A DNA stretch of 64,000 nt from Caulobacteraceae bacterium (GTDB taxonomy: Bacteria > Pseudomonadota > Alphaproteobacteria > Caulobacterales > Caulobacteraceae). Below the pieces are notes generated by a model. That model saw only the letters and a program-made list of their open reading frames with translations. It was not told the DNA's origin and did not search any database. A program made the position numbers and the translations under genes. Positions 17,668-29,482 of this stretch are shown one piece after another. The stretch is from positions 1 through 64,000 of the forward strand of contig DAIDGR010000074.1 of assembly GCA_027452265.1 (NCBI GenBank), written 5' to 3'. Numbering within the stretch: the first letter of the stretch is position 1; every line of letters begins with the position of its first letter.

Positions 17668-18014
17668 GGCGCACTCCCTACGGCGTCTGTTTGGCCCGAT
17701 CATAGCGAGCCGGCGCGCGCGAGGAAGGGTCGTGAAGCGGCGGGGCGCCAGGCGCCGTCGCCCGCGCGCCACATGGATCCATGAGTGCGTGGGCCCGATG
17801 AACGCATATTGCGCATTTGCAACATTTGTTCAGCCCAGGGACGCTAAGGAAGGCCTCATGCGTTGGCGTTCCCAGATCGTTACGTCTGGTGATTTGGACG
17901 CGAAACGGTTTGCCTTGTGGCGATGCGCCTGAGATACCGGCGTCTCGTGGAATAGGGTTTCTGGCTTTGCCGCTGACTGATCTCGCGTTTTCACGGGGCC
18001 GCCAGGCGCGGCGG
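17668..18014. other. Intergenic region upstream of the capsule locus, 347 bp
   Basis: The region lies between divergent genes and is noticeably richer in A/T than its surroundings around 17800-17830 (cgcatattgcgcatttgcaac), as expected for a promoter region. I cannot assign convincing -35/-10 boxes. The reading frame of the KpsD-like gene stays open back to 17817, but its signal peptide starts only at 18015. Confidence 0.4.
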
Positions 18015-19202
18015 ATGACGATAAGGCGTGGGGGGGCCGCGGTCGGGGGCCTCGTCGTGTGGACTTTGGCGGCGGCCGTCGCCGCCAGCCTCGCCGGTTG
18101 CGGCAACCTGCCAGATGACGGCCCCAGCGCCCGCACGGTTCTCGAAAGCGCCCGCGCCCCGAAGGACGGGGCCCTCCCGCTCGCCAATCTGAGTTTCAGC
18201 GTCACTCAGGAGATCGCCAGCGTCCCGCCTCCGCCGATGGCGAGTCTTGCGGCCTTCGACAGCCGCGCACCAAACGATCTGATTCAGCCGGGCGATACCC
18301 TCGCCGTCTCGGTGACGGAGCCAACGGGCGCGGCGCTTGGGCCGATGGCCGACAATCCCGGTCAGGCGGGCGGCGTGGGGACACAACAGCAGGCCATTCC
18401 CCCGCTCCTGGTCAATCCCGCCGGATCGATAAGTCTGCCCTTCGCGGGCGAGGTGCATGTGGCGGGCCTGACCTCGGATCAGGCGGCGGACGCGGTGCGC
18501 CAGGCGTTCCGCGGACGGTTCGCGGACCCCCAGGTCCTGGTGACGATTTCCTCCACGCGCGCCAACACGGTCTCGGTTCTGGGCGATGTGCGCAATGTCG
18601 GGCGGTTCCCAATCGGGTCTCACGCCGACAGGCTGATGGATGTGATCGCCGAGGCGGGCGGGCCGATGAAGCCCTATCAGGATCTGGATGTGGAGATCGT
18701 GCGCGGCGCGCGGTCGGCCACCGTGCCGATGAGCAACATCATGGCCTCGGCCGCGGACAATATCCGTCTGGCGCCAGAGGATCAGATCCGCATCCTGCCA
18801 GATGAGCGCAAGTTCAGCATTTTCGGCGCCTTCGACCGGCCGGCCCAGGAGCCGATCATCGACGACCATCTCTCCCTGGCCGGGGCGATCAGTCGCAGCG
18901 GCGGGCTGGACACCTTCACGGCCGCCAACGGGGCTGTCTTCCTGTTCCGCTTTGAACGTCCAGAGGTGGTCAAGGCCCTGGGACTTCAGGGCCGCGAGAC
19001 GCCGCGCGGCGTGCCGATGATCTATCGCCTCGACATGCGAACCAACGGCCAAGCCTTTCTGATCGCGGATACGTTCATGGTCCGCAACGGCGACATGATC
19101 TATGTGCCGCGGGCCAACCTCGTGGCGTTCAACAAGTTCATGCAGGCGGTCAATTCCATCGCTCAGGCCAGCTATTCGGCGAAGGTCACGGGCGTTCCCT
19201 GA
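18015..19202 (+). CDS. kpsD: Capsule export lipoprotein, KpsD/Wza-like (polysaccharide biosynthesis/export)
   Basis: An outer-membrane polysaccharide secretin. From the ATG at 18015 the protein opens with a lipoprotein signal ending LAGCGN, so Cys would be lipidated. It then has the Poly_export domain (NDLIQPGDTLAVSVTEP near residue 90; SISLPFAGEVHVAGLTSDQAADAV) and at least two SLBB-type segments (VSVLGDVRNVGRFPI and later FSIFGAFDRPAQEP), ending near residue 395. This is the usual OM partner of an ABC transporter and KpsE. Its stop overlaps the KpsS start (TGATG). The gene symbol is by role; identity to E. coli KpsD is not implied. Confidence 0.88.
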   Translation: MTIRRGGAAVGGLVVWTLAAAVAASLAGCGNLPDDGPSARTVLESARAPKDGALPLANLSFSVTQEIASVPPPPMASLAAFDSRAPNDLIQPGDTLAVSVTEPTGAALGPMADNPGQAGGVGTQQQAIPPLLVNPAGSISLPFAGEVHVAGLTSDQAADAVRQAFRGRFADPQVLVTISSTRANTVSVLGDVRNVGRFPIGSHADRLMDVIAEAGGPMKPYQDLDVEIVRGARSATVPMSNIMASAADNIRLAPEDQIRILPDERKFSIFGAFDRPAQEPIIDDHLSLAGAISRSGGLDTFTAANGAVFLFRFERPEVVKALGLQGRETPRGVPMIYRLDMRTNGQAFLIADTFMVRNGDMIYVPRANLVAFNKFMQAVNSIAQASYSAKVTGVP

Positions 19203-20518
19203 TGGCGGGCGACGAGGGGGCGACGGTCCATGTGCCGACGGCTCTGATCGAGCCGGCGACAAGCGCCGCGCCGGGCGCGGCCGCGGCCCCGGCCATCGCC
19301 CGACGCTTCCTGATCGTCACCGCCCCCTTCAACGCCTTTGCGCGCGAGCTTGCGCAGGCGCTGCGGGCCAAAGGGATCACGGTCGAGCGCGTGCTGCTCA
19401 ATGCCGGAGACTGGCTTTACTGGGGGTGGCGCGACGCCATCGCCTATCGCGGACGGGTCAAGGACTGGGAGGCCTGGATCGGGCGCCAGATCCGTGACCG
19501 CGGCGTGACTGACATCATCACCTTCGGCGACACCACCCATTACGCCTCGGCGGCGCTGCGCGCGGCGCGCGCGCTGGGCGTCGAGACCCATATTTTCGAA
19601 GAGGGCTATTTTCGCCCCAACTGGATCACCCTCGAGCGGGATGGCATCAATGCTCTTTCAAGCCTGCCGCGCGATCCGGCTTGGTACGCCGCCCATCCTT
19701 TGGCGAGTGTGCCGGAGCCAGACGGTCAGATCGGTCCCGCGGTCGGGGCGATGGTCCGGCAGATGTCCGTCTATCATATCGTGATGATGCTGGGCGCGTT
19801 GGCGTTTCCCCACTTCAGGACCGGGTATCAGGACGGGGTTTTTGCCCAGGGGGTGGGGCATGTGTTCCGCTATGGCGGCGCCGGGCTCGCCGCGGGTCGG
19901 AACAAGCGCGCCCTTGCCCGGGCGCTCGCCTCATCCGGGCAGGTTTTCCTCGTTCTGTTGCAGAGGCCTGGCGACAGCCAGTTGCGGATCCATTCGCCAT
20001 TCGATCACGTGGTGACCTTCATTCGCGACGTGATGACAAGCTTTGCCCGCAATGCGCCTCCCGACGCCTGCCTGCTGATCCGGCCCCATCCCCTGGACCC
20101 TGGCCTGACCAATTATCGACGCGTCATCGCCCGTATCGCCCGGGAGCTGAAGGTCGAAGGGCGGGTGGACTATGCGGATTACGGCAAGCTCCATGAGGTT
20201 CTGCCGAAGATGCGTGGCGTGGTTTGCGTGAATTCCACCGCGGGCCTTGCAGGGGTGGAGTTTGGGATCCCCACCATCACCCTGGGCGAGGCGCTCTATG
20301 ACATGCCTGGGTTGACCCACCAGGGCGAACTTGACGATTTCTGGCGCGCCCCGCAGGCGCCGCGGCCGGGTCTGTATCTGGCCTTCCGGCGTGTCCTGAT
20401 GGGCCTCACCCAGATCAATGGCGGTTATGCGACGCCGCGCGCGCGGAAGATGGCCTTGGAGACCTGCGTGAGCCGTCTTCTGGCCCCTCGGACGGCGCCC
20501 GCCGAAGTGACGGCGTAG
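19202..20518 (+). CDS. kpsS: Capsular polysaccharide biosynthesis protein, KpsS-like
   Basis: A 438-residue cytoplasmic protein of the capsule_synth (KpsS/LipB) family, whose studied members are beta-Kdo transferases that build the glycolipid primer of ABC-exported capsules. Family hallmarks seen are FLIVTAPFNAFARELAQALRAKG, HIFEEGYFRPNWITLERDGIN (a very typical EEGYFRPxWIT segment), ACLLIRPHPLDPGLTNYR and VNSTAGLAGVEFGIPTITLG. The first ~30 residues are Ala-rich and probably disordered. It overlaps the KpsD-like stop by one base. No KpsC partner is in the window, so the Kdo linker pathway would need a gene elsewhere. Confidence 0.88.
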   Translation: MAGDEGATVHVPTALIEPATSAAPGAAAAPAIARRFLIVTAPFNAFARELAQALRAKGITVERVLLNAGDWLYWGWRDAIAYRGRVKDWEAWIGRQIRDRGVTDIITFGDTTHYASAALRAARALGVETHIFEEGYFRPNWITLERDGINALSSLPRDPAWYAAHPLASVPEPDGQIGPAVGAMVRQMSVYHIVMMLGALAFPHFRTGYQDGVFAQGVGHVFRYGGAGLAAGRNKRALARALASSGQVFLVLLQRPGDSQLRIHSPFDHVVTFIRDVMTSFARNAPPDACLLIRPHPLDPGLTNYRRVIARIARELKVEGRVDYADYGKLHEVLPKMRGVVCVNSTAGLAGVEFGIPTITLGEALYDMPGLTHQGELDDFWRAPQAPRPGLYLAFRRVLMGLTQINGGYATPRARKMALETCVSRLLAPRTAPAEVTA

Positions 20519-20620: not shown

Positions 20621-22159
20621 GTGGCGGACCGCGTGCAGATATCGCGCGTGGGCGGCTGGCCGCCCGGAATTTTGTGGAAATCGGCTGACTTGCGGGAGTC
20701 GGTCGCGCGCTGGCGGGACGGTCGCGGCCGTGGCGCTGGCGTCAAATGGGGGCAATGGGACGACGTGTTCGACATCGATATTGAGGTTCGCCACGGGGCG
20801 CATAAGGAGCCCTCGGGCCAGATTTGGGTCTCGCGCCATGGGCGCTTTGGGATTGTCGTGCGGGCGCCGGAGAGCGATCCGGGCGCAACTCTGAACGGTC
20901 GGAGCCTGGAGGTTCGCCTTTCGACGGGCCCGGTGGGTCTGTACCGCCGCTTTCCGTTCAACTGCCATGTGGCGCTCGGGCGCAACGGCGCCACCGCGCG
21001 GATTCTCGAGTTCACGGCGCCGTCACAGGAGCGCCGGCTGCGTCTGCCCATTCCGCCGGACGGCCGTCTGGAGTTCGCCGTCACCTCTGAGCTGTCCGCC
21101 GTGCCGGCGCAGATCGGCCTTGGCCCCGATCAGCGCGACCTGGCGGTCATGATGGCCTGCTCGGTCGTCGACCTGCCGCCGGACACGGCGGACCTTGCCG
21201 GAGAGCCGCAACAGGGTTGGCTCTCGACCGCCAACCCCATTCCCGCGAGCACGCCCCGGCCGGTCTTTGTCGTGGGCATGTATCGCAGTGGCACCAGCGT
21301 CCTCACCTGGGCGATTGGCCAGCACCCGAACATCTGGCCCATGGAGGAAACCGGGTTCTTTCAGATTCTGGTCAATGGCATTCTCGCCGCCTGGCAAAGG
21401 GGCGCCGAGGCCTCGCGCAGTTTCGGGGAGGTCTATGAGATCCGGCCGGAACAGTTCGCACAGCATTTTGGCGTCGCCATCGACTCCTTCATGATCGCGG
21501 CCTCGAAGGAACGGGCCAAGCAGGTGATGCTTGCGCGGCTGTCCCAACGCGCGGACGATTTTGTCGAGCAGATTCAGGTCCTGAGATCGGTGGCGTCGCC
21601 CAAGCGGCGGTGGGTCGATGGCACGCCGGAGAACGCCTGGTCGGTTGCGCAGCTCCACCAGATCTTTCCCGCCGCCCGGTTCATCCACATCGTCCGCAAT
21701 CCCTTAAGCGTCGCCGCTTCCATGGCCCATTTCGACCGCATGGGCGGGCGGCCCGAGGACTCCGAAACGACCCTGCGCCTCTGGAGCGAACGGGTGGGCA
21801 TGGCCCACCTCGCCGAACGGGCCCTGGGCAGCGAGATCGTCATGCGGGTCCGGTACGAGGATCTGATCGTCCAGCCGGCCGAGGTCCTGAGCCGGATCTA
21901 CGCCTTTCTCGGCGAGCCCGACTTCGGCGTTTCGGCGGAGACCTTCACTGTGCGCATGAACAGTTCGAATGTCCGCAGCGAAGAGGTCGCCGCGGTCAGC
22001 GCCACGATTTCGCCCGACCGTCTGGCCGAGGCCCTGAGCCTCTATGAAGCCGCCTCTCGCCCCCTGAGCGCCCCCCTCGCGCCCGATCCCGCGGCGGCGG
22101 CGGAGCTTGCGGAAATCGTCGGCGATCAGATCCGCAGCCTGCAGACGCTCTACGCCTGA
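20621..22159 (+). CDS. Sulfotransferase with unassigned N-terminal domain
   Basis: Residues ~215-512 form a PAPS-dependent sulfotransferase: the 5'-phosphosulfate loop is VVGMYRSGTSVLTWAIG (residue ~218), and the 3'-phosphate region is RFIHIVRNPLSVAASM (residue ~352), followed by VRYEDLI. It would transfer sulfate to a hydroxyl, most likely of the capsule sugar. Residues 1-~200 are beta-rich with no motif I know, possibly a glycan-binding module. The start is a GTG at 20621 with GAAG ahead; no better ATG is in frame. It lies 102 bp after kpsS on the same strand and converges on the methyltransferase operon. A sulfated capsule is therefore predicted. Confidence 0.85.
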   Translation: MADRVQISRVGGWPPGILWKSADLRESVARWRDGRGRGAGVKWGQWDDVFDIDIEVRHGAHKEPSGQIWVSRHGRFGIVVRAPESDPGATLNGRSLEVRLSTGPVGLYRRFPFNCHVALGRNGATARILEFTAPSQERRLRLPIPPDGRLEFAVTSELSAVPAQIGLGPDQRDLAVMMACSVVDLPPDTADLAGEPQQGWLSTANPIPASTPRPVFVVGMYRSGTSVLTWAIGQHPNIWPMEETGFFQILVNGILAAWQRGAEASRSFGEVYEIRPEQFAQHFGVAIDSFMIAASKERAKQVMLARLSQRADDFVEQIQVLRSVASPKRRWVDGTPENAWSVAQLHQIFPAARFIHIVRNPLSVAASMAHFDRMGGRPEDSETTLRLWSERVGMAHLAERALGSEIVMRVRYEDLIVQPAEVLSRIYAFLGEPDFGVSAETFTVRMNSSNVRSEEVAAVSATISPDRLAEALSLYEAASRPLSAPLAPDPAAAAELAEIVGDQIRSLQTLYA

Positions 22160-22374: not shown

Positions 22375-23388
22375 TCAATCCACCGGGCGTTTGCGGATGA
22401 TCAGGCCGACGGACGTCGTCACATACCCCTCGAGCAGAAGCCTCAGATGGGGCATCTCGCGATAGGGCGGCACATCGATATAGCGCTCCACCGGCGCCTG
22501 GCCCTCGGTGAGGTCGAGCGGGGCCACCTGATGGCCCTGGGCGGTCAGCCGCTCCACCAGAGCCTCAAGGTCGCGCCTGCGGTAGAGCACCGTGGCGCCC
22601 TCGGTCAGGGTGGCATCGTTGGAGCTGAGGTTGAACTCCGTCGTGTGAATGGCCCAGCCGCCGGGTCTCAGGCAGTCCAGGGACCGCTCGATGAAGCTCA
22701 GGCCCGCATCGATCGAGCCGAGGTGCTCCAGGGCGCAAGCCGACCAGCAGAAATCGAACCCGTCCAGATCATCGGGCACCGCATTCATGTCGCAGACGCG
22801 GAAGCTCACCCGGGCGTCGAAGGCGTCAGCGTCACAGATTCGCGGCCGGCGAAGGGCCTCCAGCCCCGCGGCATGCTGCTGGGTCTCGGTCCAGCCAAGC
22901 GCCGCGGCCCTCTCCGGCGGCAGATCGGTGGCCACCACCTCGCATCCCTGAGCCGCGAAATAGGCTGATAGCGGCTCCAGACCGACGCCAAAGCCGAGCG
23001 CCCGGCTTCCTGCCTGAATCGCGCCGCGTTCGCTCAGGGCCTGGCAGATGAAGACAAACTCCCAGTTCTTTCGGTGGTAGGACCGGCCCAGGCCCAGGCG
23101 GTCGATCCAGGTCGCGAAATAGGGCTGATCAAAGCTGTCCTGACGGCAGAGCGTCGAGCAGCCGAACACGGCAGAGGGAGCCTCCGCAGGATGATGGGGT
23201 GGTCCATGCGCCCAAAGCGCGGCGGGCGGCAGGCTGAGCGCGCTGATCAGGACCCGATTTTCGCGCCGCAGGGTTTCGATCTGGCCGGCCAGCCGGTCCA
23301 GCCGTTCGGCATTGGCCTCGGTCTGATCGGCGATGACGATGAATCGCGCTCTCAGGTCTTCGAGGAGTTTGGTCCAGGTCTTGAACAC
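22375..23388 (-). CDS. SAM-dependent methyltransferase with N-terminal coiled coil, capsule locus
   Basis: Residues ~15-50 have heptad-like spacing typical of a coiled coil (ADQTEANAERLDRLAGQIETLRRENRVL). A class I methyltransferase domain follows: motif I GSRALGFGVGLEPLSAYFAAQG near residue 135, the acidic end of beta2 in VVATDLP, and a later FDFCWSACALEHLGS. The protein is 337 residues. It is last in the six-gene minus-strand operon and starts 11 bases after the small beta-rich gene. A methyltransferase attached to a coiled coil recalls WbdD, which caps and measures O-antigen chains; here no kinase domain is seen. The role in capping is inference. Confidence 0.82.
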   Translation of the reverse strand: MFKTWTKLLEDLRARFIVIADQTEANAERLDRLAGQIETLRRENRVLISALSLPPAALWAHGPPHHPAEAPSAVFGCSTLCRQDSFDQPYFATWIDRLGLGRSYHRKNWEFVFICQALSERGAIQAGSRALGFGVGLEPLSAYFAAQGCEVVATDLPPERAAALGWTETQQHAAGLEALRRPRICDADAFDARVSFRVCDMNAVPDDLDGFDFCWSACALEHLGSIDAGLSFIERSLDCLRPGGWAIHTTEFNLSSNDATLTEGATVLYRRRDLEALVERLTAQGHQVAPLDLTEGQAPVERYIDVPPYREMPHLRLLLEGYVTTSVGLIIRKRPVD

Positions 23389-23399
23389 GGGGTCTCTCT

Positions 23400-23939
23400 T
23401 CAGGCGTCTGGCGTCGCCGGCAAGGGGTTTGGGCGCGTCGCGTGGCGCAGGACAATCCCCAGAATACGCAGTTCGCCGTGAAACGCGGCGCGCTGGAGGA
23501 TGATCCTGACCTGGGCCTGATCGCCGTGAGCGAAGTCATGCTCCAACGCGATGCGGTGGGGGCCCGCCACATCGAAGGGCAGTTGTGCGAAGCTATAGTC
23601 GGGTTCGGCCCCGAACTCCACGCGAATGGGCCGCCGCGCCGCCGAGGCGCAGAGATGGAGATAGATGTTTGCCTGCCATCGCCCCGACGGAAGCGGGCGG
23701 TGAGGTCCTGACGCCAGGAATCTGACCCGGCCGGTCACGTCGATGACCTCCGGGCATGGAAGGACATCCTGGGCGTTTGGACCATAGGTATAGAGGTCTT
23801 CGAAGCTCCAGACCTCGTCGGCCGTGGCGCCGTCGCGCGCGGCCCGCTCGGCGATCTCGCGCCAAGGCTCCCAGGTCGCCCGCGCCGCAGGCTCGGGGCG
23901 GGGCGCGAACAGGCGTGAAAGGCTAAATCCTGAGGGCAT
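23400..23939 (-). CDS. Stand-alone beta-rich domain protein next to KpsT
   Basis: A 179-residue protein without signal peptide. After a ~50-residue helical lead with EVWSFEDLYTYGPNAQDV, residues ~60-165 alternate hydrophobic strands: IDVTGRVRFLASGPHRPLPSGRWQANIYLHL, then PIRVEFG, HRIALEHDF and AQVRIILQRAAFHGELRILGIVL. This looks like a beta-sandwich, as in carbohydrate-binding modules. Its start lies 17 bases inside the end of kpsT, so the two are translationally coupled. Since the ATPase here lacks the C-terminal glycan-binding domain of Wzt, this may be that domain as a separate protein. I do not know a named family for it. Confidence 0.65.
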   Translation of the reverse strand: MPSGFSLSRLFAPRPEPAARATWEPWREIAERAARDGATADEVWSFEDLYTYGPNAQDVLPCPEVIDVTGRVRFLASGPHRPLPSGRWQANIYLHLCASAARRPIRVEFGAEPDYSFAQLPFDVAGPHRIALEHDFAHGDQAQVRIILQRAAFHGELRILGIVLRHATRPNPLPATPDA

Positions 23940-24612
23940 CGAGATTGTGGTGCTCTTCCCACAGGGCCGTATAGACCTCGACCGCCATCGCCACGTCGTC
24001 GAACATCTTGGCCCGCCCGTTGTCGATGATCAGCGCCCGGTCACATTGCTGTTCGAGGATGTCCAGGGAGTGCGAGGCGATGATGAAGGCCTTGTGGCCC
24101 CGGCGGTCGAACAGCTCCTCCTGGCAGCGTTTGGTGAAGGACGCGTCGCCCACGGCGATGACCTCATCGATCAGGTAGCAGTCAAAATCGAGCGCGATCG
24201 ACACGCCGAAAGCCAGGCGCGCGCGCATCCCTGAGGAGTAGAATTTGATCGGCTCCCGCAGGGCCTCTCCCAGCTCGGCGAATTCATCGACCCGGTCCAC
24301 CAGGCCCTTGAACGGTTTGTCGTACAGGCGCGAGATCAGGCGAATATTGTCAATTCCCGTCATGAAGCCGCCGACGCCGCCGCCAAAGCCCAGAGGCCAG
24401 GAGCAGGTCATGCCATTGGTCCAGCGCACCTGACCCTCGCTGGGCGCCAGCACGCCGCCGACCAGCTTGATCAGGGTCGACTTCCCCTGGCCGTTGCGTC
24501 CGATCAAGCCAATCCGTTCCCCTGGCGCGACCGTGAAGGACAGGCCCCGATAGAGCCAGTGAGGCCGACCGTTCAGCGGAAACCGTTTGCCCAGGTTTTC
24601 GACGATCAGCAC
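23923..24612 (-). CDS. kpsT: Capsule ABC transporter ATP-binding protein, KpsT-like
   Basis: A 229-residue ATPase that powers export of the finished polysaccharide through KpsM. It has Walker A GRNGQGKSTLIKLVGG (residue ~39), the short signature YSSGMRARLAFGVS, and Walker B DCYLIDEVIAVGD with the catalytic Glu and an H-loop region FIIASHSLDIL. The QG in the P-loop and the SSGM signature are typical of the KpsT/Wzt subfamily. The length equals KpsT and is about 200 residues short of Wzt. Its partner permease is on the other strand, 4 kb away. Confidence 0.93.
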   Translation of the reverse strand: MLIVENLGKRFPLNGRPHWLYRGLSFTVAPGERIGLIGRNGQGKSTLIKLVGGVLAPSEGQVRWTNGMTCSWPLGFGGGVGGFMTGIDNIRLISRLYDKPFKGLVDRVDEFAELGEALREPIKFYSSGMRARLAFGVSIALDFDCYLIDEVIAVGDASFTKRCQEELFDRRGHKAFIIASHSLDILEQQCDRALIIDNGRAKMFDDVAMAVEVYTALWEEHHNLDALRI

Positions 24613-24622
24613 GACCGTGCGC

Positions 24623-25846
24623 CTAGCGCTGATTGTGCTCGCGGAGACCCGCGATGATCAGGGACACGATGCCGTAGGCCAGAAGAGACGCGCCAATCAC
24701 CAGAACGATCATCTTGAATCTTTGAGGCTCTTCAGAGCGCTGCGGCAGGTTGGGCTCGACCACGCGATCGAGGAACACCTGCTGCTGACGCGCATCGAGG
24801 CGCGCCGCCTCCAGACCGGCCAGAGCCGTCTCCAGGGCCTTGGACGACAGCTCGGCGTCGAGAAGGAGCTTCTCATAGTCCGCCACCTTCGGGGCCAGGG
24901 AGTCGCTCTCCCCGACCTGGCGCATCTTCTCGGCGCCGAGCTGTCCCTCAAAGGCGGCGATCTGCTGGTCGAGGATCGGCAGTTGCGCGCTCTTGGGCGC
25001 GGCGGCGGCCAGGGCGTCGCGCTGCGCCCTGAGGGCGTCGATCTGGGCTTCGAGGTGGCCGAGCAATTCGAGGTTGGCGGCGGCGGTCTTGTCGGGATCA
25101 ATGATCCTCTGGGTGGCGCGGAATGTGGTCAGGGCGGCCTGGGAGCGGGCGACGGACCGCTCCGCGTCCTCGACCTGTCGCTCCTGCTGGGCGACGGCAT
25201 CGGCCAGGGCGCGTTCGTTGAGCGCGGTGATCCAGGTCTCGCTGTGGTCCAGCAGCAGCTGTGCGAGACGTTGGGCGTCTCCGGGGCGAAAGGCTTGAAC
25301 CTTCAGCGAGAGGATGCCCGACTGCATATTGTATTCGACCGTCACAAAGCGGCCGTAGGCCTTGTAGACGTCCTCCAGGTTGGCGCTCTGCCCCAGGCGA
25401 GGAAACCGATAAAGCAGATCGCCCTCGGGCCTTCCCATCACCCGCAGCAGGAGGCCGCCGCGCATCAGGTCGGCCACGGCGGCCCGGGAGGTCATGTAGC
25501 CCTTGACCTCGTAGGCGGTGACCGTGCTTGAGCTGCCGGAAGACACGCCGACATTCGAAAGCAGCGAATCGAGACCGCCCGTGGCCTGCGGCGCATTTTT
25601 CACATTCGCCACGAACTCGGCCTCGGAGACGTATCGGGGCGCGGCGATCACGCCATAATAGAGAACCGCGCTCAGCGAGGGCAGCACGACGATCAGATAG
25701 AAGAGGAGCGGCAGTCTCCGGAGCCCCCTCAGGATCGACGCCGCGATGCTGTCAGAGCCGGTGGCCGCGACGCCCTCATGCGAATGGCTGGCTTGGACCG
25801 AAGGCTCCATGCGCTCTTTTGCACTCCCCATGCGAACGCGCGTCAC
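24623..25846 (-). CDS. kpsE: Capsule export inner-membrane protein, KpsE-like
   Basis: A 407-residue polysaccharide co-polymerase / adaptor linking the inner-membrane ABC transporter to the outer-membrane lipoprotein. One membrane helix lies near the N-terminus (LPLLFYLIVVLPSLSAVLYYGVI, residues ~47-70) and one at the C-terminus (MIVLVIGASLLAYGIVSLIIAGL). Between them is a periplasmic domain that starts YVSEAEFVANVKN and has long coiled coils (QEQRQVEDAERSVARSQAALTTF-like and LEAQIDALRAQRDAL). The start is GTG at 25846 in a GTGA overlap with the upstream glycosyltransferase stop; a later ATG (MGSAKERME) is possible. Confidence 0.9.
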   Translation of the reverse strand: MTRVRMGSAKERMEPSVQASHSHEGVAATGSDSIAASILRGLRRLPLLFYLIVVLPSLSAVLYYGVIAAPRYVSEAEFVANVKNAPQATGGLDSLLSNVGVSSGSSSTVTAYEVKGYMTSRAAVADLMRGGLLLRVMGRPEGDLLYRFPRLGQSANLEDVYKAYGRFVTVEYNMQSGILSLKVQAFRPGDAQRLAQLLLDHSETWITALNERALADAVAQQERQVEDAERSVARSQAALTTFRATQRIIDPDKTAAANLELLGHLEAQIDALRAQRDALAAAAPKSAQLPILDQQIAAFEGQLGAEKMRQVGESDSLAPKVADYEKLLLDAELSSKALETALAGLEAARLDARQQQVFLDRVVEPNLPQRSEEPQRFKMIVLVIGASLLAYGIVSLIIAGLREHNQR

Positions 25847-27213
25847 ACGCCCCGACCGATGCCTCTCGTTACCGGCTCAGCCCCCATGGCGCCAGAGAGT
25901 AGCGCGCCAGAGAGCAACGTGGTCTCAACGATCTTGAAATGTTGCGCCCAGCTCGTGCGGGGCGCCGCACGACGTCTGCGCCTCGCCGTCATATGCGCCC
26001 GGATCGCCGTCTCCCAGCCAGGGCCGTCCAAGGGGTCCAGCAGCACCGCCTTGCCCGCGAATTCCCGGTGAACGGGAATGTCGGATGCGATCACGGGTGT
26101 GCCGAGGGCCAGAGCTTCGTTGACCGGCAGGTCGAAGCCCTCGGCAAAGGAGGGCGAGAGCAGGGCCCGGGCGCCCTGGATCAGCTCGGCGAGGCACGCG
26201 TCGTCGAGGGCCTGGGTCTCGTGCACATAGCGCAGGATCGCCGGGCTGCGCTCAAGCAGATCGATGATCGCCTCGTTCTCCCAGCCCCGTTGGCCGAGAA
26301 GCACCAGATGCGGCGTGTTCGCCCCGTCACGCTCGGCGATGCGACGCCAGAGGGTCAACAGAAAGGTCAGGTTCTTGCGGGGCTCCAACGTGCCGACACA
26401 GACAAAATAGGGACGGGGCCTGGGCGCCTTTTCAGGGTCGCCATCTTCACGGACGTCTGGATCCTGGTCCCCCGGTTCATCGCCTCCGCCGCTGCAAAAG
26501 GCGGCCTCGAGGCCAAGCGGCGCGACGGACACCGGGGGAGGCGCCAGGCCACGCTGTATCGCGTAGGCCTCGATCTCCTGCCGGGTGGCCTCGGAGTTGG
26601 CGATCACGGCGGCGCCGGTGCGCAGGGCGGCCTCAAACCGGATGAGATGCAGGCGGGCGGCGCCCGGGCTGCAATATTCGGGATATCGGATGGGGATGAG
26701 GTCGTGGAGCATGATCACGCTCCGGACGCCCTTGGCCTTCAGCCGGTCGAGAACCCCGTTCTGCTCCAGGCCAAAATGGCTGACATTGAGATAGACCGCG
26801 CCGGCTGGCAGCGGCCGCGGACGGGCGAGGCGCGCCGTGTCCCAGAGCGCCAGGATCACGCGGATGACGCCAGGCAGGGCGAGGCGGGGATCCCAGCGCG
26901 CGCGCACCGGCCGAGGGGGCGCGACGGCGTCGGACGTCTCGGCCAGGGCCTCGAGCAAACGGCGCCACCGCAGCCGCGCTCCGCTCGATTCGCGCCGGCG
27001 ACGGCGTTTGGCGGCGAAGCCCCGGACGAAGGCGTCAGCGCGCAGCGGCCAGATCACACCCGCCCAGGAACAGACGGGCCAGAGCTCGACATCGGGGCGG
27101 GACTGGAGCCAGTCGAAATAGGCCTCGGTGACGCGATCGATTCCCGTCGGGGGAGTGCGACCTGGGCGCAGCATGATGCGCGAGACGTCAAACAGAATGA
27201 CGGTACGGGGCAT
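25843..27213 (-). CDS. GT4-type glycosyltransferase, capsule locus
   Basis: A GT-B fold glycosyltransferase of 456 residues. The N-terminal half reads ILFDVSRIMLRPGRTPPTGIDRVTEAYFDWL, typical of family-4 enzymes in capsule clusters. The donor-binding half has FVCVGTLEPRKNLTFLL, HLVLLGQRGWENE and the EX7E motif region PSFAEGFDLPVNEALALGTPVIAS. An insert around residues 225-265 is Asp/Pro-rich. It should add one sugar of the capsule repeat or linker on the cytoplasmic face. Its ATG overlaps the stop of the previous glycosyltransferase by one base and its stop overlaps kpsE (GTGA). The sugar and linkage are unknown. Confidence 0.88.
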   Translation of the reverse strand: MPRTVILFDVSRIMLRPGRTPPTGIDRVTEAYFDWLQSRPDVELWPVCSWAGVIWPLRADAFVRGFAAKRRRRRESSGARLRWRRLLEALAETSDAVAPPRPVRARWDPRLALPGVIRVILALWDTARLARPRPLPAGAVYLNVSHFGLEQNGVLDRLKAKGVRSVIMLHDLIPIRYPEYCSPGAARLHLIRFEAALRTGAAVIANSEATRQEIEAYAIQRGLAPPPVSVAPLGLEAAFCSGGGDEPGDQDPDVREDGDPEKAPRPRPYFVCVGTLEPRKNLTFLLTLWRRIAERDGANTPHLVLLGQRGWENEAIIDLLERSPAILRYVHETQALDDACLAELIQGARALLSPSFAEGFDLPVNEALALGTPVIASDIPVHREFAGKAVLLDPLDGPGWETAIRAHMTARRRRRAAPRTSWAQHFKIVETTLLSGALLSGAMGAEPVTRGIGRGV

Positions 27214-28532
27214 CAGAGGAAGGGCCGGTAGAATTTGGCCAGACGCGCCTGGTAGGCGGCATGGCTGAACTGCTCCGCCTGGCGTGCGCCACGACCCGTC
27301 AGGTCGGCCCGGAGCGCTTCATCGCCGTCGAGCGCCTTGATCCCGGCGCGGATCGCGTCGGTGTCATAGGGGTCCACCAGGATCGCGGCATCCCCCGCGA
27401 CTTCGGGCGAAGACCCGGTATTGGCGGTCAGGACCGGGGTTCCGATCTGCATGGCCTCCAGAATGGGCAGACCAAACCCTTCATAGAGAAAGGGCGCCAG
27501 CACCGCCTTGGCGCCGCGGATCAGCCGCGCCAGAAGCGGCCAGGGAAGATAGGCGTAGCGGCGAACGCGGTCCGATCGCCGTGTGGTCGTGGCCTCAAGG
27601 ATCTGCCGCTCGATCAGGTCGGGATACAGAAGGCGGAGCTCGTCCTCGACGAGCCAGCCATTGGCGCCGACAATGACCAGCGGGCTTTTGGCGCCGGACG
27701 CCAGATAGGCTTCGATCACGCGGGGAAGGTTCTTCTTGGGTTCAATGGCCCCGAAGAACAGGAAATAGTCGCGCCAGCCCAGGCCAAATGTGGCCTCGAT
27801 GTCGTGGGCAAGGTCGGACTCGGCGCGGGCGGTCAGCTCCGCAGGCGTGGCCACCGCCTGGTAGGTCACATGCACGCGCTCCGGGTCTGCCTGCAGAAGA
27901 CGAATGATGTCTTGCCTGGAGGTCTCGGAGACCGTGGCGATCGCATCCGCCGTGCGGACGATCTTGCGGCACAAGGCCAGGAAGTTGCGCTTGTTGTCCA
28001 GGGTGGTGAAGGGCAGGCGCAACGGGACGAGATCGTGGATCGTGTAGAGATTGGGCCGCCCGTTTGCGCGAAGCGGCAGGGGGCACGTCCAGTGAACAAG
28101 GTCCGGCGGCGGCCCCGCGGCGCGATCAAATGTGACCGGGGTGAATCGCCGGCGCGCCGCGAACCCGCGATTGGCCGTGTGAAACAGGTCGGCGCAGGCC
28201 CAGATGGCGTCGTGATCGGGCGCCCGGGGGGCAATCTGGCGGGTGATGACCGCATCGGCGGCCGCGACCCGTCTCAAAGTGCGACCGAAGGGGGAGGTGA
28301 GGTAGCCAAGCATGGCGCCGGGCCGGGGCCAGCCGGTGGGCGATATGGTGGGCGCGTCGAACAGGTCCAGCTCCGCCAGAATCGGATCCTTGCGAAGGCG
28401 GGGCGGTCCAAAGATCAGGTCGGTCTGGTGCCCCAGGCCCCGGACGGCCTGGTTCAGATTGCGCGCATAGGTCGCGATCCCCGAGCCTTGCGGCAATGAA
28501 ATATTGAACCCGTCGATCGCGATCGTCGTCAC
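27213..28532 (-). CDS. GT4-type glycosyltransferase, capsule locus
   Basis: The first gene of the six-gene minus-strand capsule operon, 439 residues. The acceptor half begins TIAIDGFNISLPQGSGIATYARNLNQAV with the glycine-rich loop of family-4 enzymes; LYTIHDLVPLRLPF follows. The donor half has FLFFGAIEPKKNLPRVIEAYL, PLVIVGANGW and APFLYEGFGLPILEAMQIGTPVLTAN (EX7E). It resembles the next gene in architecture, so the two may be an old duplication or act in turn on the same chain. It is divergent from kpsM across 134 bp that must hold both promoters. The donor sugar cannot be told. Confidence 0.9.
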   Translation of the reverse strand: MTTIAIDGFNISLPQGSGIATYARNLNQAVRGLGHQTDLIFGPPRLRKDPILAELDLFDAPTISPTGWPRPGAMLGYLTSPFGRTLRRVAAADAVITRQIAPRAPDHDAIWACADLFHTANRGFAARRRFTPVTFDRAAGPPPDLVHWTCPLPLRANGRPNLYTIHDLVPLRLPFTTLDNKRNFLALCRKIVRTADAIATVSETSRQDIIRLLQADPERVHVTYQAVATPAELTARAESDLAHDIEATFGLGWRDYFLFFGAIEPKKNLPRVIEAYLASGAKSPLVIVGANGWLVEDELRLLYPDLIERQILEATTTRRSDRVRRYAYLPWPLLARLIRGAKAVLAPFLYEGFGLPILEAMQIGTPVLTANTGSSPEVAGDAAILVDPYDTDAIRAGIKALDGDEALRADLTGRGARQAEQFSHAAYQARLAKFYRPFL

Positions 28533-28666: not shown

Positions 28667-29482
28667 ATGCTCTTGAGGATGTCACGATGGGCGGAGAGGC
28701 TCGGCGCGTGGTTCGCGCGTAACGGCCGGGTCATGTGGGCGCTGCTGATGCGTGAGGTCAGCACGCGTTACGGCCGGGACAATATCGGCTTCCTCTGGGT
28801 CGTCGCCGAGCCCACCTTCTTCGCCGTGGGCGTCTCGTATATGTGGTCCCAGGTGCGGCCTCCCTATGAGAACGGGATCCAGCTGATCCCGTTCATCATC
28901 ACCGGCTATTTCCCGATTATTCTGATCCGGCAGGTGGTCAACTATGCTGCAGGCGGCGTGCGCAACAATGCTCCGCTTCTGTATCACCGGATGGTCACGC
29001 CGCTGCACATCATCCTCAGTCGTTGCTGGATCGAATTCATCGGCGTCACCATCGCCGGGATTGCTGTGGTCTCCGCCTTCGTCTTCCTGGGTCTGATGCC
29101 GGCGCCCGTCAGCGTTCTTGGACTGGGCAATTTTGCCTATGGCTGGGTGGTGCTGGGGCTTCTCTCCACGGCCCTCGCCCTGGTGACGGCCGCGATCGCC
29201 GAGGTGATCGAGTTTACCGAGAAGGTCATCCACATCTTCACCTACCTGAGCCTGCCCTTTTCAGGCGGCTTCATCATGGCCGCGAGCATGCCGCCGCGGC
29301 TGTTCAAGTTTGCCTGGTCGATGCCGTTCCTTCACCCGATCGAGCTGATGCGAAGGGGCTATTTTGGGGGTTCAACGACCACCATATTCGACATGAATAT
29401 CGTCTATACCTGGATCGCCGCGCTCTTCTTTGCCGGCCTCCTCTTGATGCAGTTCGTCAGATCGCGGATCAATGTCGAATAG
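28667..29482 (+). CDS. kpsM: Capsule ABC transporter permease, KpsM-like
   Basis: A 271-residue ABC-2 type permease with about six membrane helices. The conserved cytoplasmic start is MWALLMREVSTRYGRDNIGFLWVVAEPTFFAVGV, typical of KpsM/BexB/CtrC. The motif FTYLSLPFSGGFIMAASMP and the C-terminal LHPIELMRRGYFGG are also characteristic. It pairs with KpsT to export polysaccharide across the inner membrane. The start is either ATG 28667 or ATG 28679 (MSRWAERLG); the GAGG before the second is too close to be a good ribosome site, so I keep the longer one with low certainty. Unusually it is separated from kpsT and reads the opposite way. Confidence 0.92.
   Translation: MLLRMSRWAERLGAWFARNGRVMWALLMREVSTRYGRDNIGFLWVVAEPTFFAVGVSYMWSQVRPPYENGIQLIPFIITGYFPIILIRQVVNYAAGGVRNNAPLLYHRMVTPLHIILSRCWIEFIGVTIAGIAVVSAFVFLGLMPAPVSVLGLGNFAYGWVVLGLLSTALALVTAAIAEVIEFTEKVIHIFTYLSLPFSGGFIMAASMPPRLFKFAWSMPFLHPIELMRRGYFGGSTTTIFDMNIVYTWIAALFFAGLLLMQFVRSRINVE

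Follow-up and report, generated by a model that had tools for sequence, protein, structure and literature searches.

In our preferred reading, which we give a probability of about 0.58, a 179-residue protein encoded directly behind kpsT in a Caulobacteraceae capsule locus is a cytoplasmic subunit of the KpsMT exporter that resembles carbohydrate-binding modules (CBMs). The protein would dock on KpsT, bind the nascent capsule and gate its export, probably by convergence with the carbohydrate-binding domain of the O-antigen exporter ATPase Wzt, and a neighbouring methyltransferase would contribute optional tailoring. This proposal draws on the gene order, a 17-base overlap with kpsT, recurrence of the arrangement across the family, one gene fusion and a predicted fold.

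The capsule locus and its exporter

The stretch analysed (the window, 64,000 nucleotides) comes from a genome of 2.73 Mb in 117 contigs that is 98.9% complete. It holds a capsule locus with the following genes.

17817..19202, + strand: kpsD-like outer-membrane polysaccharide export protein (Poly_export, SLBB)
19202..20518, + strand: kpsS-like capsule synthesis protein (Capsule_synth, 3e-64)
20621..22159, + strand: sulfotransferase with an N-terminal region of ~200 residues (Sulfotransfer_3, 4e-33, residues 214-433)
22375..23388, - strand: class I SAM methyltransferase, 337 aa, short N-terminal coil, GTG start (Methyltransf_11, E 7e-6)
23400..23939, - strand: CBM-like beta-sandwich protein of 179 aa, encoded on its own and proposed to act with KpsT in carbohydrate recognition, ATG start
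23923..24612, - strand: kpsT, ABC-transporter ATPase, 229 aa, GTG start (Pfam ABC_tran, 5e-15)
24623..25846, - strand: kpsE-like inner-membrane export protein (TIGR01010 BexC/CtrB/KpsE, E 2e-72, 244 bits against a 437-bit cut-off)
25843..27213, - strand: GT4-type glycosyltransferase (Glyco_trans_1_4)
27213..28532, - strand: GT4-type glycosyltransferase (Glycos_transf_1)
28667..29482, + strand: kpsM-like permease (ABC2_membrane, 1.5e-10; KpsM model, 8e-22, under its cut-off)

The initial annotation had described a 229-residue ATPase, a 179-residue beta-rich protein overlapping it by 17 bases and an adjoining methyltransferase with an N-terminal coil, all within a KpsMTED-type setting, and this description was borne out. 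The ORF coordinates and lengths are exact, the small protein was predicted to be all beta, and the methyltransferase combines its Methyltransf_11 match with a Leu-rich N-terminal helix judged by eye. The junction between kpsT and the 179-residue gene reads ...CTCGATGCCCTCAGGATTTAGCC..., where the ATG of the latter opens the 17-base overlap that closes with the kpsT stop codon, and 11 bases separate the stop of the 179-residue gene from the methyltransferase start. GC at the third codon position is 0.77-0.84 in all three genes, as is typical of this genome, and competing ORFs on both strands lack this signature; the three genes are therefore taken to be coding. A chance overlap of kpsT with the small gene was ruled out, as overlap or tight spacing recurs across genomes.

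KpsT, KpsM, KpsE and KpsD were all found in the locus, with KpsE and KpsM regarded as divergent members because their NCBIfam scores fall below the curated cut-offs. The best solved-structure match of KpsT was 8tsi (E 9e-53), which we take to be the Schlegelella KpsMT structure, and Wzt and TagH structures scored far lower; the ATPase is thus a KpsT and not a truncated Wzt. Together with the KpsS-like protein, these components liken the locus to group 2 capsule exporters, from which it differs in the added KpsT-linked domain and in its single Capsule_synth (PF05159) protein. The KpsS-like protein at 19202-20518 is the one such protein in the whole genome, where no separate KpsC was found, and the lipid-linker chemistry may therefore differ from that of E. 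coli group 2 capsules. The sulfotransferase, whose N-terminal ~200 residues had no match in a Pfam search, suggests that the capsule is sulphated.

Predicted fold and comparison with Wzt

AlphaFold2 (four sequences) predicted an all-beta structure of 11 strands for the 179-residue protein, with an overall pLDDT of 75.7. Confidence was ~75-91 over residues 41-170, which form the domain, and low over the N-terminal 40 residues. A Foldseek search of the PDB placed family 16 modules (CBM16) at the top (E 2e-4), and the other best matches included CBM15, CBM61, CBM70 and the sugar-binding EclA domain. A trimmed model, poorer in its N-terminal part, gave the same class of matches and added CBM4-2 (TM 0.54, rmsd 2.9 over 95 columns). 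The E-values of these matches were ~2e-4 to 5e-3. The TM-scores of the fold matches were moderate (0.4-0.54), and non-sugar jelly rolls, including toxin translocation components, viral capsids and 4-1BB ligand, also appeared among them; for these reasons, the fold is compatible with sugar binding but does not by itself prove that function. The protein shares its predicted jelly-roll fold with CBM16, the hyaluronan module CBM70, CBM61, CBM15 and CBM4, but it is only 8-16% identical to CBMs and is a cytoplasmic, exporter-linked protein, whereas CBMs are attached to secreted hydrolases. An immunoglobulin-type kinship was dismissed, since the domain profile, run against PDB sequences, gave only weak matches (E 0.09 or worse).

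The initial annotation had raised the possibility of a split Wzt system, to be judged by structure prediction of the small protein. The architecture stood: a stand-alone beta-sandwich with a predicted CBM-like jelly roll, the fold class of the Wzt C-domain, is coupled to KpsT and is fused to it in one relative. The kinship did not. Wzt_C (PF14524) gave no Pfam match in the protein or, at E<=1, in the whole genome; it was absent from the 50 Foldseek PDB matches listed, and hhalign of the domain against two Wzt_C domains, with a thin profile, returned a probability of 0.1%. Homology to Wzt_C was accordingly rejected; as their sequences show no kinship, the small domain and the carbohydrate-binding domain of Wzt are probably analogous and not homologous. 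Each is a beta-sandwich tied to the ATPase that powers an ABC exporter for polysaccharides. The Wzt domain, however, belongs to Wzm-Wzt exporters and forms the C-terminus of the ATPase, whereas the partner in the window is a KpsT accompanied by KpsE and KpsD and the small domain is usually a separate gene. Wzt domains, described as jelly rolls, are reported to rescue export even when produced as polypeptides separate from the ATPase (PMC9445017), and a naturally split version is therefore plausible. By analogy, the layout of KpsT with a separate small protein suggests that this exporter may check its cargo much as Wzt does.

Recurrence of the domain behind kpsT

The 179-residue protein had no match in Pfam, NCBIfam or PHROGs, and its domain family is not described in Pfam or NCBIfam. 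Relatives were found in 4 of 60 related genomes and in 70 of 390 Caulobacteraceae genomes, mostly Brevundimonas, with a conserved core of D-x-T-G-R-P-R-x-L-x-x-G-P-Y-x-x-L-P-x-G-x-W-R. Among 385 genomes spread over the class, only two matches fell outside the family, and in both the domain forms the C-terminus of a ~360-residue protein near kps genes; a collection scan with a narrow domain alignment found three loci.

The domain occurs in three forms. It stands alone (136-180 aa) directly behind kpsT in the window and in G012, G030, G107, G109 and G208, as well as in G114, G115 and G213, which were assigned from spacing and open-frame length. In most Brevundimonas, it is the C-terminal part of a ~290-residue protein behind kpsT (for example, L033 5488-6402 and L034 3110-4036), preceded by a region of ~160 residues without a Pfam match. 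Finally, KpsT and the domain share one ORF of 406 aa in G014 (locus L032, JAQGIW010000158.1), a member of the same genus as the window. The linker of this fusion is ~45 residues long and Pro/Ala-rich, and codon usage and GC pattern are those of coding sequence throughout; the fusion is known from this one metagenome-assembled genome.

The linkage to the exporter is close. The domain was located at 71 places, and at 69 of these it shares the strand of kpsE and follows that gene at a distance of 0-2 kb, the exceptions being G104 (10 kb off) and G101 (opposite strand); weak partial matches in G339 and G389, genomes without KpsE, were excluded from the 71. Wherever the DNA was fetched, the gene between kpsE and the domain was kpsT, and the start codon of the domain gene usually fell no more than a few bases from the stop of kpsT, mostly overlapping or touching it. 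Of the 93 Caulobacteraceae genomes in which KpsE matched strongly, 68 carried the domain, versus 2 of the 297 others, counts that come from mutually related genomes and do not represent independent events. Profile inspection of 20 of the remaining 25 strong-KpsE genomes revealed a divergent copy behind kpsT in eight, one of which (G135) lies in a frame broken by stops.

That copy (L077 4373-5320, - strand) is a long domain gene interrupted by stops or frame changes, either a pseudogene or a sequencing error, with ambiguous bases nearby. In several of the inspected genomes without the domain, a large glycosyltransferase gene occupies the place behind kpsT. The Brevundimonas loci L071, L075, L078, L080 and L081 carry there a large ORF matching the glycosyltransferases of the window, and in the two that were read, L071 and L075, this ORF has, by eye, a TPR-like N-terminal stretch.

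Beta modules with a GPY-x-x-L-P-x-G-like motif also seem to end other proteins near kps genes, all on the - strand: a methyltransferase (L032 5221-6780, no profile support), a sulfotransferase-like protein (L086 5064-6311, weak profile support, E 7e-5) and a coiled-coil protein (L074 7871-8734, weak profile support).

Given the extra N-terminal region in most Brevundimonas versions, binding may not be all that the protein does. It would also suit a docking role in which the protein, seated on KpsT, brings the growing chain to modifying enzymes, such as the sulfotransferase, the methyltransferases or that N-terminal domain itself, and export is not gated. Similar beta modules that seem to end tailoring-type proteins near kps genes (that of L086 and those of G452 and G600) and the differing types of methyltransferase that adjoin the domain gene are in keeping with such a role. 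We nevertheless consider it unlikely, as the short versions and the fusion lack an enzyme domain and the domain gene adjoins kpsT rather than any single tailoring gene.

The methyltransferase and the proposed cargo check

The initial annotation had further envisaged a WbdD-like methyltransferase that caps the chain and sets its length through its coil, with the small protein reading the cap. Homologues of the methyltransferase do adjoin the domain gene, in G012 of the same genus as in the window, as a convergent neighbour in G030 and G202 and in the same operon in G135, and one lies on the contig of the fusion in G014; a link of the enzyme with capsule loci therefore exists. However, the enzyme and the domain are not distributed in step. 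In a set of 80 Brevundimonas genomes with strong KpsE, the enzyme was present in 27 and absent from 45 of the 72 counted as domain-bearing, and it was present in 6 of the 8 counted as domain-less (of these eight, all but G170 and G177 were inspected by profile), a difference whose direction is opposite to pairing (Fisher p 0.06). Moreover, homologues with 56-61% identity and a similar N-terminal segment lie amid peptidase, MFS, argF-like and hsp33 genes in G017 and G019. On this distribution, a tight methyltransferase-domain pairing was rejected. Two Brevundimonas loci carry a different methyltransferase convergently behind the domain gene (L033 6392-7279 and L034 4026-4913), of FkbM type by Pfam in L034 and similar by reading in L033.

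The architecture of the enzyme also departs from WbdD. In WbdD, the coil lies at the C-terminus, behind a kinase, and brings about trimerisation (PMC3482155); the WbdD of E. coli O8 is a plain methyltransferase that lacks the kinase. The window enzyme resembles WbdD of E. coli O9a/O8 in joining a methyltransferase domain to a helical segment inside an exporter locus, but a Pfam search found no kinase domain in it, and its helical segment is N-terminal and short (about residues 8-50, ~40 residues, read by eye) where WbdD has a long C-terminal coiled coil. Although the O8 precedent and the adjoining homologues are in its favour, the full O9a-like scheme is improbable on these grounds, and the capping and ruler role proposed for the enzyme was not upheld. 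Cap-writing in the window locus is possible, though nothing tested points to it; the methyltransferase is a probable accessory glycan-tailoring enzyme and probably not part of the cargo check. It is most improbable that the protein serves the KpsMTE complex only in its structure or assembly, with a jelly roll that contacts nothing but protein. Such a role would agree with the strict kpsT linkage and with the non-sugar jelly rolls that the fold search returned. However, the domain is missing from some kps loci that have this type of KpsE and is thus not required for assembly as such, and carbohydrate-binding modules figure prominently in the top fold matches.

For the preferred reading, a carbohydrate-recognition subunit of KpsMT, we propose that translational coupling yields the 179-residue protein in step with KpsT and that the protein would dock on the KpsT dimer. 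There it may bind some part of the growing capsule polymer, whether backbone, end or decoration, and the exporter would accept solely finished or correctly decorated polymer. The domain would act like the carbohydrate-binding domain of Wzt while belonging to a different, probably convergent, family, and the methyltransferase, like the sulfotransferase, would most likely serve optional capsule tailoring and not as an obligate cap-writer for the domain.

KpsMT exporters work without such a KpsT-linked domain. To our knowledge, they are thought to take very different capsules via a conserved lipid end, without a cargo-reading domain, and the literature searched yielded no account of a carbohydrate-binding domain linked to KpsT. 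We tentatively suggest, at slightly less than even odds, that one branch of group 2-type exporters acquired, in a separate event, a cytoplasmic subunit on KpsT that recognises carbohydrate, has no kinship with Wzt_C and certifies the finished or decorated chain before export. A split Wzt-like layout within a KpsMTED system is a variant of a known logic, built here with a domain family absent from Pfam and NCBIfam. If true, a KpsT-linked carbohydrate-binding subunit would indicate that polysaccharide exporters evolved cargo checking on more than one occasion, and the naturally split form would make it possible to uncouple recognition from ATP-driven transport by genetic means.
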